A stretch of 64,000 nt of DNA, taken from assembly GCA_017447805.1 (NCBI GenBank), contig JAFSMR010000015.1:1-64000 (forward strand), given 5' to 3'. Position 1 is the first letter of the stretch, and each line of letters begins with the position of its first letter. The notes under the pieces were generated by a model. The model did no database searches, had not been told where the DNA came from, and saw only the letters and a list, made by a program, of their open reading frames with translations. Source of the stretch: Kiritimatiellia bacterium (lineage in GTDB: Bacteria > Verrucomicrobiota > Kiritimatiellia > RFP12 > UBA1067). A program made the translations under genes and the position numbers. Of the stretch, positions 53,372 through 62,581 are shown piece after piece.

Positions 53372-53430
53372 GCGCCTCTGCGCGAGATAAAACCAACTCG
53401 AAACTCCAACTTTCTCGGTAGATTTTATCA

Positions 53431-53601
53431 AAAATTTTTTTTGGCGCCAAGGCGCCCAGGGCGCAAGCGCGCATAAATTTTGTAGGCCCGGCGGCGCCCA
53501 GGGCGCAAGAAGCGCGGAAAATTTGTAGGCCCGGCGGCGCCTAGGGCGCAACTGAGCGGAAAATTATCGGCTTGCCCGCGCTCTAGGGCGCAAGAAGCGC
53601 G
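53431..53601. repeat. About 43-bp tandem repeat, four degenerate units
   Basis: Units begin near 53431, 53474, 53518 and 53560, each with AAATTTT, a GGCGGCGCC-like GC part and AGGGCGCAAGAAGCGCGG. Differences between units exclude a recent expansion. Open frames across it on the minus strand are repeat-made and not credible genes. Confidence 0.75.
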
Positions 53602-53658
53602 AATTTTTGTCGACCCCGAGACAACCAAAAACAAAATTACCAATTCCACTCTACAACT

Positions 53659-53798
53659 ACGGCGGCCGCAATAAATTGCGGCCCTCCCGCTCAGCGCCTT
53701 GAGCGCCTCTGCGCGAGATAAAAAACCCAAAAGCTACGGCGGCCGCAATAAATTGCGGCCCTCCCGCTCTACACCTCTCCACCTCTACACGGCTAAAT
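53659..53798. repeat. Two inverted copies of the GC-palindrome repeat
   Basis: 53659-53726 is the inverse of 50037-50104, and 53737-53798 is the exact inverse of 49124-49185. Together they close the right side of the repeat-rich island, just before the surface-protein promoter. Confidence 0.9.
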
Positions 53799-53857: not shown

Positions 53858-53889
53858 TTGACGGGGGGGGGGGGGGGGTGTGATATAAT
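53858..53889 (+). promoter_or_regulatory. Promoter with G16 tract in its spacer (likely phase-variable)
   Basis: TTGACG (53858-53863) and TATAAT (53884-53889, preceded by TGA) are separated by 20 bases, mostly an uninterrupted run of 16 G (53863-53878). Thirteen G would give the optimal 17-base spacing. Slipped-strand change of the tract should switch expression of the surface protein, as with known phase-variable promoters. Confidence 0.75.
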
Positions 53890-53922
53890 ATAGGCGAAAA
53901 TCCTAAAATGGGAGGAATAGTC

Positions 53923-56900
53923 ATGTTCAAATTATTCAAGGCGAAATTGGTTGTCGCATTGGCGGCGGTGGGCCTCGCGCTCGGCGCAAGAGCAATAACA
54001 AATGAAGAAATTCAATATTATCTATGGTGCGAATATCTCGATTTCACATGGTCGGGAGATGTTTCTGTGGTTTATGATTATGGCTATGCCGTGAAAATTA
54101 CGGCGGAAGGGCAAGATAAATATTCGGAGCTGGTGACTCAAGTCTACGGGCCGTGCCTTTTGGGGTATAAGGTCAAAAGCTCCACCACTGATGGATCGAG
54201 TGCTTATCTTTCGATTAAGGATCCAGAAAATTACTTTAGTTCTGTAAGGTTAGAAGACTACACTTCGTATGAAGATATAGTTGATGTAGTATCGGATGAA
54301 GGCTTAAACGTACTCTCGTGGAGGGCTTCTACGCCCGTGGCAGGCGGGTCTGCCTCTTTGACTCTTCACCCTCTCAGTGTATGGCCGAGGGTTACATTCG
54401 ATATGACGGGGTGCACCGGGACGGCGCCGGACCTCACCGCAGATCCGTTGAACGACGAGGAGAGAATAAAAATACATACTGACGGCAATACTTACGCTAG
54501 GGTGGGCAAGAGGATTAAACTCCCCGCTACAGCGACTACATTCAGCAAAAATGGTTGTACCTTAACTGGTTGGTATGTAAGGCGTGCCAACGCGGAACGT
54601 GATGATTTCTACACTCCAGGCGATTTCGTTACAATGACCCTCGAGCCGATTACGATACGTCCATCGTGGATAGGTAATGAGCACAACGAGACTTCTGGCT
54701 ATGCCGCACGTGTGGAGTATTACAATGACGCAATTGGATGCGACCAATTGAATTTCTTCAGCTGGGGATGGCAAGCCGGGGAAGGCGCCGGCGGCGATGC
54801 TAGTATACAAGATTTCAAAGCCAACCATACCATTGAAATCATGGCCGATGGCTCGGGGTGTAAGACCCATCTAGGCGCTTCATTCGAGGGACCGTGCTAT
54901 TTGGAATATAAATGGAAAGGTACGGCTTCGGGCGGTGACGCGAGCGACAAGCCGTACTTCCACACGGAAATCTACAGAGACGGGGACGATTTTAATGTAG
55001 TAAAGTATGAAAGGTATAATAATGAGTTCTCGTCGACAAGCGAAGGTCTTACATGCGATGCAAAGAATGAATATGAATTCGGCAAGGATAAGGATATCTT
55101 AACGGTTATCTGGGAGACGGATAATTCGAATTACAGCGGCAAGACCACCCTTACGCTTGGAGGAGTTGTGTATTACCCCGTGCTTAAAGTAAATCTGTCC
55201 AGCGCGGATTCCATCTTGGATGAGCATAATTCTGTTGCCTATTGGGGCAGTGGCGTCAGTGCCAAGGAATATTGGTTTTCTAACTATTGCTTTAAGCCAG
55301 GCGTGGTTATTACGCTGCCTGGAGCAGAGAACATAAAATTCTCCAAAGATGGCTATCATCTCGCGGGATGGGAAATCGATGGAACAGACTACGCAATCGG
55401 CGCAAACTATACGATGCCCGGCAGACCTGTCGAGATGAAGCCGATTTGGGAGGAAGGCGGCGAGCTAAAGCAGCTTCTTGGCTGCGATTATCTCGATTTT
55501 ACGAGCGCGACAGTAGGCGGCGGAAAAGTCAACAATACGGCAGGCACTGATTTCTTGCGTCTCGAGGCGAGCGGCAACAATGGGCTTGCCGAAATTGGCA
55601 GCGGCGTGAAGGGTCCATGCTATATCGGCTATACATGGGTCGGCGAGGCGAATACGGACTATGCGGAAGGCTATTTCAAGTATCAAGACGCCCTTACGCT
55701 CCAGACTGAAACGGTAACTCACGCCCTGGACGGCACGATTAGCCCCATGGTTTTGCTCCCATTGGCGCAAGATTATTCGATTACATGGGGAGTCACCACG
55801 CAAGGCGCGGGCGCGAGCGCCGCGGCGCATGTAGACCTAAGCAATGTTACGGTATATCCCGGAATCATGTTCGATTATGGCGGGGCGACAGGCGCGGCGC
55901 AGTCCTTGACGGATGTACAAGAGGAAGAAGGCCTTGTTTTCGAGGATAGTGGAATATACTTCGCGGCTGTCGGCTCGAGGATTACGCTGCCCGGGCCTGG
56001 CACGCTGGCCAAGGAGGGCTATAATTTTTCGTGCTGGCTAATCGATGGCTCGGTATACCGCTCTGCCGGCCAAACGTACAAGATAGACGAGGCAAAGCCC
56101 ATTACAATCGAGCCTGTGTGGAGGCCAGACTATGGGAAGTATGTGAACTGCGATTATCTTAACTTTTTTGATTTTACGACCGGTAACGCTTCGGTAGATG
56201 TCGATACCGTGCAAAACCAAGTCTGCCTCGCAGCGCTTGAAGAATATTCGGAAGCCTGCCTATATACCGGCAACGACTCTGTCGCCGGGCCTGGCATTGT
56301 GAAATACGATTGGAACGGGCGCCAGAATACGACGGGCGGCTACGCGCAATTCAGTGTATTTGATTATTATTACTGGGAAACCGTAGTAGAACAATATTAT
56401 AACAAACTCGGGACCGAAACGACAAGCGGGAGCGCAATCGCGTATCTGCCGGAGTGCCACGATTACCAAATCCAATGGTGGGCTTGTAGCGCCGGCGGCG
56501 GCACTTATTGGAATCTATCCGATATTTCGTATTGGCCGCGCGTTACGTTCAATGGCGGTGATGCGACGGGCGAGGCGCCGAAGCTTTCGGATGTTCCGGC
56601 GAATATGGCGACTTTTTGCATGACGGGCGAGGATGGTTACAGCTACGCGAAGGCGAAGAGCTGGATTATATTGCCCGGCGCGGGTTCGTTCTCAAAAGCC
56701 GGCTATCATCTCGCGGGATGGAAAATCGGCGGAGTGGAATACGTGGTCGGCGCGCTGTTGCAGATGCCGGTAGAGCCAATTACGGCCAACGCTATCTGGG
56801 TCGAAGGCGAAGAGGAAGAGCCGGAGACCGAATGGCCTGGGCTCGTATACGACGACGATACGGAGTTTGGCGCGAAGGGGGCGTGGAATGGCTATTTCAT

Positions 56901-57885
56901 CGACGATAACGGCGTAGTAGTCGGCACGATCAACATCAAGGCTGGCGCATTCAAGAAGGGCAAGAGCGCCGCTACCTTCACCGTGACGCTTTGGAACAAA
57001 AAGTCCTTCAAGATCAAGAGCAATGTAATAAGGGATGATATCAACGGCTATTGGACCAATGCATCGGTGAAGGGCGGTAATTGGGTAGAGGCCTTCTTTA
57101 CCCACGAGAATGTCTATGGCTGGGTAAACGGCATATTCTTCGATGCCGGGCGCGATTTCTCAAGCGACAAGGGCGCGGCGGCGGCGGCATTCAAGAAGAA
57201 GCTCGACGGCGCGAAGAAAGATTTCGTATTGGCGGGGACTTCCACTCCGCTTTCCGGCAAGACGGATTTGCAAAATGGTTATATAGGCGTCACGGTTAAT
57301 ATCGGCGCGAAGGGCAAGCTTAAGTTTTCCGGCGTGTTGCCGGATGGCAACAAGATCAGCGGCAAGGGCGTAGCGCTCGTCGATTCGCGCGGCGTGTATG
57401 TTCCTCTCTGGACTCAGGTAGCCTCGAAGAAGGGGTATTTCGGCGGGCAGATGATTTCAGCAGATACCCTGCAACCGCTACGCAACCCGACAGGCTGGTG
57501 GATTGCGCCGCAGATTGAATCTGTCTTCGATTTTGTGGATGCTCAGCTTCTTAAGAATTCAAAGCCCACGGCATCTTGCACACTCTGGGCGCTTGGCGCG
57601 CCGGAGGCGATCGATGGCAAGGCGCTAGATGCTACAACGATTCCCGGCTGGTCGGAGCCGATGGCGCTTACCTTCAAGGGTAAGGCGTGGACGACTACGA
57701 GCGCGAATCCCGGCAAGCTTAAGCTTACGTATGTTCCCAAGACGGGGCTTATCAAGGGCAGCTTCACGGCGCTTTCCGGCAAGAAGAAATTCAAGGCGAC
57801 GATAAATGGCGCGTATGTCGGCAAGGAAGGCTTTGCCAACGCCTTCTTCAAGGGCAAGCGCTCGTTTGGCATTTGGATGGAGTAA
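53923..57885 (+). CDS. Large exported surface protein with four InlB-like repeats
   Basis: 1320 residues from the ATG at 53923, which has GGGAGGA just upstream. A signal peptide of about 24 residues ends ARA. Four modules of about 230-260 residues follow, each opening with a CDYLDF-like segment, carrying a GPCYxxYxW strand and closing in an InlB/Listeria-Bacteroides-type repeat (FSKDGYHLAGWEI, near residues 206, 473, 697 and 923). The last 345 residues hold several beta-rich Lys/Gly segments ending FFKGKRSFGIWME, a C-terminal domain I associate with gut Lentisphaerae/Kiritimatiellae surface proteins. Likely an adhesin or glycan-binding protein. The poly-G promoter suggests phase-variable display. 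Confidence 0.85.
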   Translation: MFKLFKAKLVVALAAVGLALGARAITNEEIQYYLWCEYLDFTWSGDVSVVYDYGYAVKITAEGQDKYSELVTQVYGPCLLGYKVKSSTTDGSSAYLSIKDPENYFSSVRLEDYTSYEDIVDVVSDEGLNVLSWRASTPVAGGSASLTLHPLSVWPRVTFDMTGCTGTAPDLTADPLNDEERIKIHTDGNTYARVGKRIKLPATATTFSKNGCTLTGWYVRRANAERDDFYTPGDFVTMTLEPITIRPSWIGNEHNETSGYAARVEYYNDAIGCDQLNFFSWGWQAGEGAGGDASIQDFKANHTIEIMADGSGCKTHLGASFEGPCYLEYKWKGTASGGDASDKPYFHTEIYRDGDDFNVVKYERYNNEFSSTSEGLTCDAKNEYEFGKDKDILTVIWETDNSNYSGKTTLTLGGVVYYPVLKVNLSSADSILDEHNSVAYWGSGVSAKEYWFSNYCFKPGVVITLPGAENIKFSKDGYHLAGWEIDGTDYAIGANYTMPGRPVEMKPIWEEGGELKQLLGCDYLDFTSATVGGGKVNNTAGTDFLRLEASGNNGLAEIGSGVKGPCYIGYTWVGEANTDYAEGYFKYQDALTLQTETVTHALDGTISPMVLLPLAQDYSITWGVTTQGAGASAAAHVDLSNVTVYPGIMFDYGGATGAAQSLTDVQEEEGLVFEDSGIYFAAVGSRITLPGPGTLAKEGYNFSCWLIDGSVYRSAGQTYKIDEAKPITIEPVWRPDYGKYVNCDYLNFFDFTTGNASVDVDTVQNQVCLAALEEYSEACLYTGNDSVAGPGIVKYDWNGRQNTTGGYAQFSVFDYYYWETVVEQYYNKLGTETTSGSAIAYLPECHDYQIQWWACSAGGGTYWNLSDISYWPRVTFNGGDATGEAPKLSDVPANMATFCMTGEDGYSYAKAKSWIILPGAGSFSKAGYHLAGWKIGGVEYVVGALLQMPVEPITANAIWVEGEEEEPETEWPGLVYDDDTEFGAKGAWNGYFIDDNGVVVGTINIKAGAFKKGKSAATFTVTLWNKKSFKIKSNVIRDDINGYWTNASVKGGNWVEAFFTHENVYGWVNGIFFDAGRDFSSDKGAAAAAFKKKLDGAKKDFVLAGTSTPLSGKTDLQNGYIGVTVNIGAKGKLKFSGVLPDGNKISGKGVALVDSRGVYVPLWTQVASKKGYFGGQMISADTLQPLRNPTGWWIAPQIESVFDFVDAQLLKNSKPTASCTLWALGAPEAIDGKALDATTIPGWSEPMALTFKGKAWTTTSANPGKLKLTYVPKTGLIKGSFTALSGKKKFKATINGAYVGKEGFANAFFKGKRSFGIWME

Positions 57886-58008: not shown

Positions 58009-59037
58009 TCAGCCAATGAGGGCGGAAATTGCGTTTGTGAAGGCAGCGTGAGAAAAGTTGGTCGCGTTATCTCTGCAAGAGCGTTCGGACCATGTGCGGC
58101 TTTCGAATTCTTCGATAGCGGCGCAAAGCGAATCGACCGTCTGTTCCTTGAAAAAGAGTCCAGTTTCGTTTTCGACTACTGTTTCCAGTGCGCCGCCTTC
58201 ACCGAAGGCGATTACTGGCGTTCCTGCGGCCTGCGCCTCGACGGGGACGATGCCGAAATCTTCTATCCCAGGGAATATAAGCGCCTTGGCGTTCGCGTAG
58301 AGTTCGCGCAGTTTTTCGTCCGTCACTCTGCCTCCGCCGGCAACGATGAGGCGGCGATTCATCTTTTTGCATGCGGCGACAGCGAGGTCCAGCCGTTTAT
58401 AGGCAACGTTTGCGCCAGCAAACAGGTAGTAGGGTTCGGATGAAGAATCTTCGCTGCGCCTAACGGAAGAGAAAAAGTCGATGTCTACCGGCGGATGGAT
58501 TACGGTAGAATCGCGATTGTAGATTCTCTTGATGCGATTAGCGACGAATTTCGAATTGGCGATGAAATGATCTACCGAATCGGCGCTCTTTAGATCTTCC
58601 TTCTTTAGGTAATCGAGAAAAAGCTTCATGCCGAGCTTGCCGAGAGGCCCGGCGCTTCTATAGTAATCATCGGACATATCCCAAACATATCTCATGGGAG
58701 TATGGCAATAGCAATAGTGCTTCTGGCCAGGGCGCTTCTTTATGCCTTTAATGGGACCTGATTCGCTGGAGATAATGAGATCGTACTTATCTAGTTTAAG
58801 ATGGCGAGTAGCAAAAGGCATTAGCGGCAAATATGCCTGTGGATGGCGGCGGCCTAGAGGAAGTTTTGAAATCAGACTTTCGCAGATGCGATGTCCGTTG
58901 AAAATTTTGCCGGCGTTTTTGGCGATAAAGGCGTGGGTGAAGATATCGGCTTGAGGGAAAATCTTCGCAAGCTGGGCGAGGACTTTTTCGCCGCCGCGGA
59001 TATTTGTAATCCAATAATGTAGAAGGGCTGTTTTCAT
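58009..59037 (-). CDS. Glycosyltransferase family 4 (WbaZ-like)
   Basis: 342 residues. The N-terminal Rossmann part has HYWITNIRGGEKVLAQLAKIFPQADIFTHAF and YCHTPMRYVWDM. The C-terminal GT-B part has YLFAGANVAYKRLDLAVAACKKM, IVAGGGR and FPGIEDFGIVPVEAQAAGTPVIAFGEGGALETV, with the donor-binding ExxxxGIxxxE region. It probably adds mannose or a related sugar to a surface polysaccharide. It is last in the stealth-GT2-GT4 operon; its ATG is one base after the GT2 stop. Confidence 0.92.
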   Translation of the reverse strand: MKTALLHYWITNIRGGEKVLAQLAKIFPQADIFTHAFIAKNAGKIFNGHRICESLISKLPLGRRHPQAYLPLMPFATRHLKLDKYDLIISSESGPIKGIKKRPGQKHYCYCHTPMRYVWDMSDDYYRSAGPLGKLGMKLFLDYLKKEDLKSADSVDHFIANSKFVANRIKRIYNRDSTVIHPPVDIDFFSSVRRSEDSSSEPYYLFAGANVAYKRLDLAVAACKKMNRRLIVAGGGRVTDEKLRELYANAKALIFPGIEDFGIVPVEAQAAGTPVIAFGEGGALETVVENETGLFFKEQTVDSLCAAIEEFESRTWSERSCRDNATNFSHAAFTNAISALIG

Positions 59038-59038
59038 A

Positions 59039-59887
59039 TTAAGGAATTCTCTCTTTCTGTTTCCCGAAGGCGCGGCCGTAGAACATATTGAAATAATAGA
59101 CGAATTTTTTCGGGGAAGATACTATTTTTGCGAGCGGATAGAATATATTCGCCGCTTTGAACCAAAGGGGATAGCGAAGTTTCTTCAGTAGCGCCATGCG
59201 AGTAATCCCATAGCCGCGAATCTTTTCGCGCGGCACGTTATTTTGAAGTGGATGGCGAATCTTTATTTTCGAAGAGCGATAGATTTTTGCGCCGGCGAGC
59301 GCGGCACGCGCGAGATAATCGCTATCGTCGCCGCCGAAGGGATAGCGGCTATTGGGTGAAGGACCGAAATTCTCGTCGAACGCCCCGATTCGCCTTACCA
59401 TTTCTGCTCGATAGAATTGGACGAACATTTCGCCTTTCTTGAAAATGGAATAGCGATTTTCCTTCTTCAGGAAATCTCTAGGCGGGAAAGCTGCGCCAAA
59501 ACCTTCCCAAACGCCGAGAATGACATCCGCGCTTCGGTTCGCGGCGAAAAGCGAAAGAGCATTCGCTATTGCGCCTTCTTCGTAGGTGCAGTCGTCATCA
59601 GGGAAGGCGACTATAGGCGAAGAGATGCGCTCGATTACTTCATTTCGCGCCGCACAAACGCCTTTGACGCTCGATTTCACATGCACGATTTTCCAGCGCG
59701 CAGGCAATTTTTCGATGATTGGAGCAAGGCGGTTATCGTTGTTCTGGTCGGCAATTATGATTTCGAGACGAATATCTTCGGGGGTAGAGCGGATTGACGA
59801 AAAGAAATCTTCCACTTCCTTTGTTCTCGAGCAAGTCGCTAAAATGAGCGTAATATCGCAATTCGGGGAAGTGGTCATTGTGTTCAT
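59039..59887 (-). CDS. Glycosyltransferase family 2
   Basis: 282 residues from the ATG at 59887, chosen because it overlaps the stealth stop as ATGA. TLILATCSRTKEVEDFFSSI and EIIIADQNNDNRL open the GT-A fold; PDDDCTYEEGA near 95 is the DxD metal site; RRIGAFDENFG and FGGDDSDYLARA complete the acceptor region. It likely builds a surface glycan with its neighbours. Confidence 0.9.
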   Translation of the reverse strand: MNTMTTSPNCDITLILATCSRTKEVEDFFSSIRSTPEDIRLEIIIADQNNDNRLAPIIEKLPARWKIVHVKSSVKGVCAARNEVIERISSPIVAFPDDDCTYEEGAIANALSLFAANRSADVILGVWEGFGAAFPPRDFLKKENRYSIFKKGEMFVQFYRAEMVRRIGAFDENFGPSPNSRYPFGGDDSDYLARAALAGAKIYRSSKIKIRHPLQNNVPREKIRGYGITRMALLKKLRYPLWFKAANIFYPLAKIVSSPKKFVYYFNMFYGRAFGKQKERIP

Positions 59888-60921
59888 CTTTCGAATGAGC
59901 ATTTATCGCCTAGCCTTCGCTCGAAGGCATTGGCGAGCTTTGTTTTCGCGGCTTCGAAATTTTCGATATCCGGCGAATCGTTCCAGCATACTACTTTATA
60001 TTTGCCCTTGGCGATGGCTTCGCAGGCCGCATCGAATTTGTCGAAGCCTTCGAACGACTTCGCGAAAGAAGTGGAGCGCGGGGAAAATTTTCCGCTCGCG
60101 AACTGCCAATATTGCATAAGCCATTGGTTGACATCGCCCGGGGTGCGGAATTTGTGGCGGCAGGTTTCATCAAGTTTCGTTTCTTCCTTGGCCCAGACTT
60201 CTTCGAATGTATCTTTTAGATATGCGACAGACGCGTGCTCGATGAAAAAGCCGATGAAATTGCCGTAAGGCAACGATAGAAGAGAGCGAATCAATTTTCC
60301 TTTGTAGAGAGGATTCCACCATTTGAAGAAATTCCCGCGGCGGCATTTGCGCTTATCGAAATTCGCGTTTATTATATAGAGATCGTCGATTTCGGCGCGA
60401 ATGCCGTTTTGTGTAAGATGGATTGCGCTTTCAATCGCGGCGTCGCGCGGGAGGCCGTGCGTGAAGAAATCGGTAGGTTTCAGCGGGGAAACGGGGAACA
60501 TATCGTCGTTGAAATAGACGAATTGGCGCGCCAAACCCGGCAGGCGGTGAAAATTCAGTTCGATTGTGTGCGAACTGAATGTAGGCAAATATTTTTCGGG
60601 AATATAATCTTGGTGGCGAACGATATTTAGACGCGGATTGGCAGTATCTAGCCAATCGGGGACATGTCCCCACGTGACGAAATGGATTTTTCTTACCCAC
60701 GGGGCGAATTTGTCTACGCCGCGAAACCAATATTTAAGAACTCCCCAATCGCGATATCTCTGGGCGCCGGCGTTCCATTTCGCTTCGGCGCCGGAACTTT
60801 CGAGCGATGAATATTTCGCGCGCTCGCTTTGCCAAGAGGGGTCTAGACCATCTACCCAAGGGATTACAAAATCGATGGGTTCGGTTGCTCTACAGGCGCC
60901 AATATTATCTTTCTCAGCCAT
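59884..60921 (-). CDS. Stealth-family hexose-1-phosphoryltransferase
   Basis: 345 residues. The stealth conserved regions are in order: IDFVIPWVDGLDPSW (CR1, near 16), RYRDWGVLKYWFRGVDKFAPWVRKIHFVTWG and FVYFNDDMFPVSPL (CR2), the EHASVAYLKDTFEEVW region (CR3), and GKYKVVCWNDSPD (CR4). Stealth proteins transfer sugar-1-phosphate to build capsular polysaccharide with phosphodiester links, which can hide cells from host immunity. It opens a three-gene operon. A TACAAT -10 preceded by TGC lies at 60938-60933, 11 bases before the ATG. Confidence 0.93.
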   Translation of the reverse strand: MAEKDNIGACRATEPIDFVIPWVDGLDPSWQSERAKYSSLESSGAEAKWNAGAQRYRDWGVLKYWFRGVDKFAPWVRKIHFVTWGHVPDWLDTANPRLNIVRHQDYIPEKYLPTFSSHTIELNFHRLPGLARQFVYFNDDMFPVSPLKPTDFFTHGLPRDAAIESAIHLTQNGIRAEIDDLYIINANFDKRKCRRGNFFKWWNPLYKGKLIRSLLSLPYGNFIGFFIEHASVAYLKDTFEEVWAKEETKLDETCRHKFRTPGDVNQWLMQYWQFASGKFSPRSTSFAKSFEGFDKFDAACEAIAKGKYKVVCWNDSPDIENFEAAKTKLANAFERRLGDKCSFER

Positions 60922-60996
60922 TTACAGCGCATATTGTAGCATATTTTCCGTCTTTGTGGTAGGGGGATGAAGAAAATTTCATGTCTTCGTTGGGCA

Positions 60997-61025
60997 TTGC
61001 GGGAAGGCGAAAAATATGGTATAAT
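60997..61025 (+). promoter_or_regulatory. Promoter of efflux lipoprotein gene
   Basis: TTGCGG (60997-61002), a 17-base spacer and TATAAT (61020-61025) preceded by TGG. Unlike most promoters here, it gives a leader of about 26 bases with a TAGGAGA ribosome site. Confidence 0.8.
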
Positions 61026-61057
61026 AGCGCTCACTAGACATATTAGGAGATATTATA

Positions 61058-62581
61058 ATGTCAAACAAGCTCCAATATCCCGCTATAATAGCGGCGGCTA
61101 TCGCCGCCGGATGTTCTTCGTTGCCTTCAGTCGGGCCAGATTACGAAAAGCCCGAAATCGAGATGGGCGAATATGCGCTGCCCGATGCAGGCTTGCCCAC
61201 GACGAATAGGCTGGAGACGGGCGAATACCAGCCTGCGAAGGGTGAAGGCGATTTCCGTCGTGGCGTTTCGACCGCTGATATCAGGGATTGGTGGACGAGA
61301 TTCCACGATCCCGTGCTTACGGATTTAGTCAATTTATCCGTTACGAACAACATGAGCTTCAGAATGGCGCAAGAGAGGCTTGAAGCTTCGCGCTGGTCGC
61401 TCATGGGGTCGTATGCCGCGTATTTGCCGAAATTCAATGTAAACGCGTCGGCGATGCGCATGGAGCGCGGCAAGAACACCTCGACGATGGCAGGCTCCGG
61501 CAGCAAGATGCATCGTGATGTGTTCGCGGGCGGGTTCGACGCCACTTGGGAAATCGATATATTCGGCGGCAGCCGCCGCGCGACCGAGGCCGCGTGGGCG
61601 CAAGCGCAAGCGGCAGGCTGGGATATCGCAGATGCATATGTAAGCTTGACGGCGGAAGTCGCAAGCCAGTATCTCGAGCTTCGCATTACCCAGCAAAGAA
61701 TAGAAGTAGCGCGAAACAACCTCAAGCTGCAGAGAGAAACTTACGATATTTTGAAATCGCGCCTAGATTCCGGCATTGGCGATGAGCTGGCGGTAAATCA
61801 GTCGAAATATCTCGTAGACCAGACATTGGCGACGATTCCCCCGCTTATCAGCAAAGAGACCGAGCTCAAGGATGCGATCGCGATTCTCATTGGCGAAATG
61901 CCTGGCGCGCTCGAAGATTTGCTCGCTGAATGCCCCAAGCGCGATTGGCTAGTCGATCCCGTGAAGTTGGAAGCTGTTCCTTTGGATATGATCCGCAATC
62001 GTCCGGATGTTCGCGTCGCGGAGCGCAAGCTTGCCGCGCAAGTAGCGTACGTAGGGGTCGCGAAGGGGATGTGGTATCCGAAACTCTTCATCAACGGGTC
62101 GCTTGGACTTGAATCTATTCATCCGAACAAGCTGTTCAATCATGATGCGATAGTCGGCTCGATTGGCCCCTCGGTAAGCTGGCCGATATTTCAAGGCGGC
62201 AATATTTATGCGAACATAAAAGTAGAAGAAGCGAGGATGAACGAGGCGATACTCGCATACGAGCTCGCGCTCGAGCAGGCATATAGCGAAGTTCGCGCCG
62301 CATATTCCGATTACACCCACGAATACCATCGCTATCTCGCGTTGCAAGGCGCGGTCAGGGCGGCGGAAGATGCCGTTACGATTTCGAAAGACCTGTACAA
62401 GAACGGGCTGAAGGATTTTACTGCGGTAATCGATGCGCAGCGCTCGTCGCTCGCGCTTGCCGAATCGCTGGTAGTATCGCGCGGCAGAATATCGCAATAT
62501 CTCATTGCTCTTTACAAGTCGCTCGGCGGCGGGATTGACGAGGAAGTTTTCGAGATCGAGCAAAGAGGCGAGGTTTTGTAA
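61058..62581 (+). CDS. Outer-membrane efflux lipoprotein (NodT/OprM family)
   Basis: 507 residues. The signal ends at the lipobox AAGC (Cys19), followed by SSLPSVGPDYEKPE as in OprM-type proteins. Two OEP repeats cover about 85-280 and 290-495, with DLVNLSVTNNMSFRMAQERLEASR and RPDVRVAERKLAAQVAYVGVAKGMWYPKLFINGSLGLE. It forms the trimeric exit channel for an RND or ABC exporter. The partner pump is not in the window. Start at 61058 with TAGGAGA upstream. Confidence 0.93.
   Translation: MSNKLQYPAIIAAAIAAGCSSLPSVGPDYEKPEIEMGEYALPDAGLPTTNRLETGEYQPAKGEGDFRRGVSTADIRDWWTRFHDPVLTDLVNLSVTNNMSFRMAQERLEASRWSLMGSYAAYLPKFNVNASAMRMERGKNTSTMAGSGSKMHRDVFAGGFDATWEIDIFGGSRRATEAAWAQAQAAGWDIADAYVSLTAEVASQYLELRITQQRIEVARNNLKLQRETYDILKSRLDSGIGDELAVNQSKYLVDQTLATIPPLISKETELKDAIAILIGEMPGALEDLLAECPKRDWLVDPVKLEAVPLDMIRNRPDVRVAERKLAAQVAYVGVAKGMWYPKLFINGSLGLESIHPNKLFNHDAIVGSIGPSVSWPIFQGGNIYANIKVEEARMNEAILAYELALEQAYSEVRAAYSDYTHEYHRYLALQGAVRAAEDAVTISKDLYKNGLKDFTAVIDAQRSSLALAESLVVSRGRISQYLIALYKSLGGGIDEEVFEIEQRGEVL

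Follow-up and report, generated by a model that had tools for sequence, protein, structure and literature searches.

Promoter and gene at the locus

We analyzed a 64-kb stretch of DNA, which we refer to as the window, from an uncultured gut bacterium of the Kiritimatiellae. The features at the locus are as follows.

53427..53776, no strand: non-coding repeats upstream of the promoter (40-nt direct repeats and two copies of the GGCCGCAATAAATTGCGGCC palindrome)
53858..53863, + strand: -35 hexamer TTGACG (5/6 matches to the consensus; this genome's own consensus is TTGACA)
53863..53878, + strand: G16 homopolymer, read directly, the proposed slippage tract; the run starts on the final base of the -35 hexamer
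53864..53883, + strand: spacer of 20 nt, G15 plus TGTGA (the optimum in this genome is 18)
53879-53883, + strand: TGTGA between G16 and TATAAT, read directly from the sequence
53881..53889, + strand: extended -10 element TGATATAAT (TGA-TATAAT), with TGn at 53881-53883 and TATAAT at 53884-53889
53911..53916, + strand: Shine-Dalgarno sequence GGAGGA, preceding the ATG at 53923
53923..57885, + strand: coding sequence of an exported protein of 1320 amino acids (open reading frame); residues 1-24 (ending in LALGARA) resemble a Sec signal by inspection
54025..56805, + strand: four modules of about 220 residues (amino acids 35-251, 272-511, 520-735, and 742-961), each with a Flg_new-like end
56842..57882, + strand: C-terminal all-beta domain, which also occurs in many of the genus's exported proteins and in a paralogue on contig C13

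The original prediction placed a G16 tract between TTGACG and an extended TATAAT at a spacing of 20 nt, and a direct reading of the sequence bears this out. A simple promoter scanner overlooked the site because it admits only spacers of 16-18 nt. The run is far longer than expected by chance: even G9 is expected just 0.13 times in shuffles of the 64-kb window.

The downstream gene also turned out to be as predicted, with an open reading frame for a four-module protein of 1320 residues that starts, by inspection, with a Sec-type signal peptide (MFKLFKAKLVVALAAVGLALGARA). Pairwise identity among the four modules is 28-36% (z = 10-15). In a profile search, the protein scored 29.8 bits against Flg_new/List_Bact_rpt (PF09479), above the cutoff of 27, which places it among the Listeria-Bacteroides repeat proteins. 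Export is supported by the signal peptide, and the protein may be displayed on the surface. Among 60 congeners we found no close orthologue of the whole protein, only the C-terminal domain being shared, which counts against a switch. A sequence search of the PDB gave no matches. The predicted structure of the C-terminal domain is all beta (a modest model, with a pLDDT of 69), and we did not assign a function from it, as there was no convincing match in the PDB (TM of 0.24 or less by query). In the paralogue on contig C13, the same module and C-terminal domain are fused to an N-terminus that is caspase-like by inspection, and its promoter has an ordinary 18-nt spacer with just G5.

The repeat-rich island that was said to adjoin the gene is also present, upstream of the promoter. 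The region of the GGCCGCAATAAATTGCGGCC palindrome folds better than shuffled sequences do (z = -3.8), and the repeats have no demonstrated role in a switch. On the other side of the gene, at 58009-62581, are two glycosyltransferases, a Stealth-type (capsule phosphotransferase-like) protein, and an outer-membrane efflux protein, which are cell-surface genes.

Spacers and G tracts in the same genome

Consensus promoters (TTGACA and TATAAT) occur 31 times in this genome, versus once in the control. Their spacers are 18 nt in 25 cases and 17 nt in two, and 20 of the 31 have the extended -10 element (TGn). It had been proposed that losing three G would give an ideal spacing of 17 nt; because the genome's own spacers are mostly 18 nt, the optimum would instead be reached by losing two G, which leaves G14.

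Runs of eight or more G are rare: there are only 11 in the 2.25-Mb genome, and their lengths are 9 (one run), 10, 10, 12, 12, 15, 16, 17, 17, 18, and 22. This excess of long over short runs is unlike a random tail; it would follow if tracts, after they form, stay long or slip. The tract at 53863-53878 is the only one that we found inside a promoter spacer, the rest being in leaders or at more distant upstream positions, which counts against a switch. We considered whether the long tracts might result from the loss of mismatch repair and rejected this, as MutS1 is intact. The intact MutS1 is itself a point against a switch, since the tract would have to slip in spite of repair.

Poly-G promoter spacers in related genomes

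We searched 162 genomes of the order with a strict pattern (TTGA, G8 or longer, and TATAAT, with spacers of 7-32 nt admitted) and found 22 sites in 14 genomes, as compared to about 2 tracts in the reversed control. The spacer was 16-18 nt at 16 of the 22 sites (P = 3e-8 against a triangular null). When poly-C was sought in the same position, there were just 8 sites, with spacers scattered from 13 to 24 nt, so we did not treat poly-C spacers as a comparable class. Within the same genus, the pattern TTGAC-G8+-TANNNT matched 11 sites and none in the control, and at several of these, the G run directly follows the -35 hexamer, as it does at 53858-53889. The promoter at 53858-53889 is itself in neither the order-wide nor the same-genus count because G16 is too long for the gaps in the two patterns. 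Similar-looking promoters within genome G027 have G9 and G12 (spacers of 16 and 19 nt). The tracts in most relatives have 8-14 G, and that G16 is longer counts against the switch. We also took a census of 139 tracts of G8 or longer in six genomes: 31 lie in promoter spacers, with 0.4 expected at random positions, and one promoter-spacer tract was found from the opposite strand. Given the excess over the control, the clustering at 16-18 nt, and the result of the census, we rejected a chance meeting of a G run with promoter-like hexamers.

The proteins downstream tend to be exported. By a simple and crude rule that also catches membrane proteins, the N-terminus is signal-like in 19 of the 21 readable downstream proteins from the order-wide set, versus 15 of 37 open reading frames in the window (P = 2e-4). 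Under a slightly looser rule for the promoter, genome G093 has 11 promoter-spacer tracts, of which 10 precede exported proteins. The 3.5-Mb genome of G088 has 52 runs of G9 or longer. Twelve of them are promoter spacers, and another 17, of G9-10, are among the codons at the start of signal peptides, as in MKKHTLIGGGRKLSLALG..., and encode there a motif of the GGG-R/K type between the n- and h-regions. Slippage in these signal-peptide tracts would shift the reading frame, so the tracts of G088 are likely a two-layer contingency set.

These distributions bear on whether the promoter is real and its poly-G spacer passive, that is, tolerated and drifting between species but hardly varying within a population, with nothing being switched. 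The sequence of a spacer is weakly constrained and the genome has an intact MutS1, as this account would have it. However, a passive tract would not be concentrated in promoter spacers far above the random expectation, or before exported proteins, and the targeting of signal-peptide codons in G088 is unlike one as well. We consider a passive spacer to be unlikely.

The organism falls among the Kiritimatiellae: at the G023 site, in the same genus, the promoter and the downstream protein are as in Kiritimatiellae bacterium RGIG5528, from sheep colon. In sister species, different passenger sequences follow a shared promoter and signal peptide (MMNCKLTK...), and the copy in G093 diverges after the signal peptide, which suggests cassette exchange behind a conserved switch.

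Tract lengths differ between relatives

Our comparison of flanking sequences was crude and gave many false pairs, so we kept a pair only where the flanks were about 90% or more identical over about 100 nt. One orthologous promoter in G092 and G093 has a single mismatch in the 200 nt upstream and otherwise the same boxes: it reads TTGATTTC-G11-CTGATATAAT in one genome and has G10 in the other, which takes the spacer from 17 to 16 nt. The version in G101 has A plus G10. A second orthologous tract is G12 versus G11, and a third locus, which is repeated, has G14, G11, and G9. As these lengths differ beside near-identical flanks, the tracts change faster than their surroundings. The differences between species could include assembly errors, which counts against reading them as a switch.

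Similarly, the G16 tract as assembled may be wrong by one base or more. Short-read sequencing or assembly might have distorted the run or its length, with the true spacer being nearer 17-18 nt and stable. Two of the G runs elsewhere in this genome, the G22 run on contig C70 and the run on C9, are close to or at the end of a contig and resemble poly-G artifacts of sequencing, and a G-tract length in a reference is reported to disagree with that in the population, along with Illumina trouble on G-tracts (PMC9187656). In contrast, the G16 tract lies inside a 77.8-kb contig, exactly between two promoter boxes, and many comparable tracts were assembled independently in other genomes. We consider this account quite improbable. 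The least probable account, which we give very little weight, is that the tract acts other than by spacing (as stiff or quadruplex-forming DNA, as a regulator site, or with the working promoter elsewhere): two tracts in this genome (G12 and G17, on C6 and C67) do sit in a leader, after a TATAAT box and before a large exported protein begins, where spacing cannot be the mechanism, another is upstream of a further exported-protein gene (C36), and a promoter-tuning tract outside the spacer is known from Helicobacter pylori sabA (PMC4081817), but the run at 53858-53889 is flanked by a near-consensus -35 and an extended -10, and spacing directly explains why spacers across the order center on 16-18 nt.

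A candidate switch for an exported protein

The reading that we prefer, and hold with fair confidence, is of a sigma-70-type promoter in which a slippage-prone poly-G tract determines the distance between -35 and -10. It would reversibly and randomly switch the exported protein and would be one of a lineage-wide set. The original interpretation as a poly-G switch promoter is supported by the promoter layout and the exported product, by such spacers recurring well beyond chance at the levels of genus, family, and order, by their functional spacing, and by the single-G differences in orthologous promoters of relatives. Replication slippage would add or remove G, so that spacer length would differ among the cells of one clone. 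RNA polymerase would work best near 18 nt here, so about 13-15 G should give high expression, and the 16 G that were assembled (a spacer of 20 nt) would be a low, weak, or off state. A single assembled sequence would represent just one state of a poly-G promoter. The outcome would be reversible, graded, and random switching of a large modular protein, and if the protein is on the surface, switching might help the cell to evade phage, the host, or competitors.

Across the lineage, related gut Kiritimatiellae have poly-G in the spacers of promoters for many exported proteins, and in one relative that we examined, signal-peptide codons carry it as well. Because the lengths of the G runs differ even between near-identical copies, DNA slippage probably turns the expression of these exported-protein genes up and down at random.

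Comparison to known systems

In Neisseria meningitidis, a poly-G tract lies between the -35 and -10 of porA, and 11G, 10G, and 9G give graded expression; switching of porA also occurs in a strain with mutS deleted only for comparison (PMC3639595). In Treponema pallidum, transcription of tp0126 (an OmpW homologue) is best at a 17-nt spacing, as cited in PMC7864442. The locus in the window shares the features of this type of promoter: a homopolymer of at least 8 nt between recognizable -35 and -10 boxes, a spacer (20 nt) within reach of this genome's optimum by slippage, and an exported product, judging by the signal peptide and the modular protein of 1320 residues. Like porA, whose product is a surface protein, it has the poly-G spacer tract before an exported-protein gene; the organism and the gene are unrelated, the tract is longer (16), and the spacer optimum is 18 rather than 17. 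Going by the same citation, tp0126 likewise has poly-G between its -35 and -10 but is an outer-membrane OmpW-like gene from a different phylum, whereas ours encodes a modular repeat protein. Overall, poly-G contingency loci of the meningococcal porA or treponemal tp0126 kind appear to be part of the repertoire of gut Kiritimatiellae.

In a gut commensal, Bifidobacterium breve, poly-G slippage controls surface structures (the pilus), but that tract is intragenic and switches the reading frame (PMC9187656), so it resembles the signal-peptide tracts of G088 and not the promoter at 53858-53889. Phase variation by mononucleotide slippage was also suggested for Akkermansia muciniphila, from the Verrucomicrobia, a related gut phylum; the tracts described in the accessible part of that report are intragenic, in 17 genes including capsule genes, with no promoter-spacer class among them (PMC3048395). 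The slippage-promoter mechanism is already known, and it seems to be undescribed in the Kiritimatiellae: our literature search found no publication that joins Kiritimatiell* and phase variation.

Wider distribution

The lineage-wide set is a more interesting result than the single locus. Slippage-switched surface genes are so far known mostly from a few pathogens. That uncultured gut Kiritimatiellae have a recurrent set of poly-G tracts aimed at promoters suggests that bet-hedging of this kind is common in gut commensals. We lean towards the view that gut Kiritimatiellae have a phasome of up to tens of poly-G loci per genome, both transcriptional and translational (G9 in signal peptides), aimed at large exported proteins, and that the spacer trick is also spread across many uncultured gut lineages (Bacilli, Clostridia, Saccharibacteria, and others).

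A scan across the tree with the pattern TTGAC..G10+..TATAAT matched at least 119 stretches from many phyla, which we view as a lead and not as a measured frequency; the distribution of spacers is shaped by the pattern, and we did not use it as proof. Among the tree-wide matches listed, 71 of 95 had signal- or membrane-type N-termini downstream. Also among the matches listed, poly-G spacer promoters precede exported proteins in uncultured Bacilli, Clostridia, Saccharibacteria, Candidatus Ancillula, Streptobacillus, and others.
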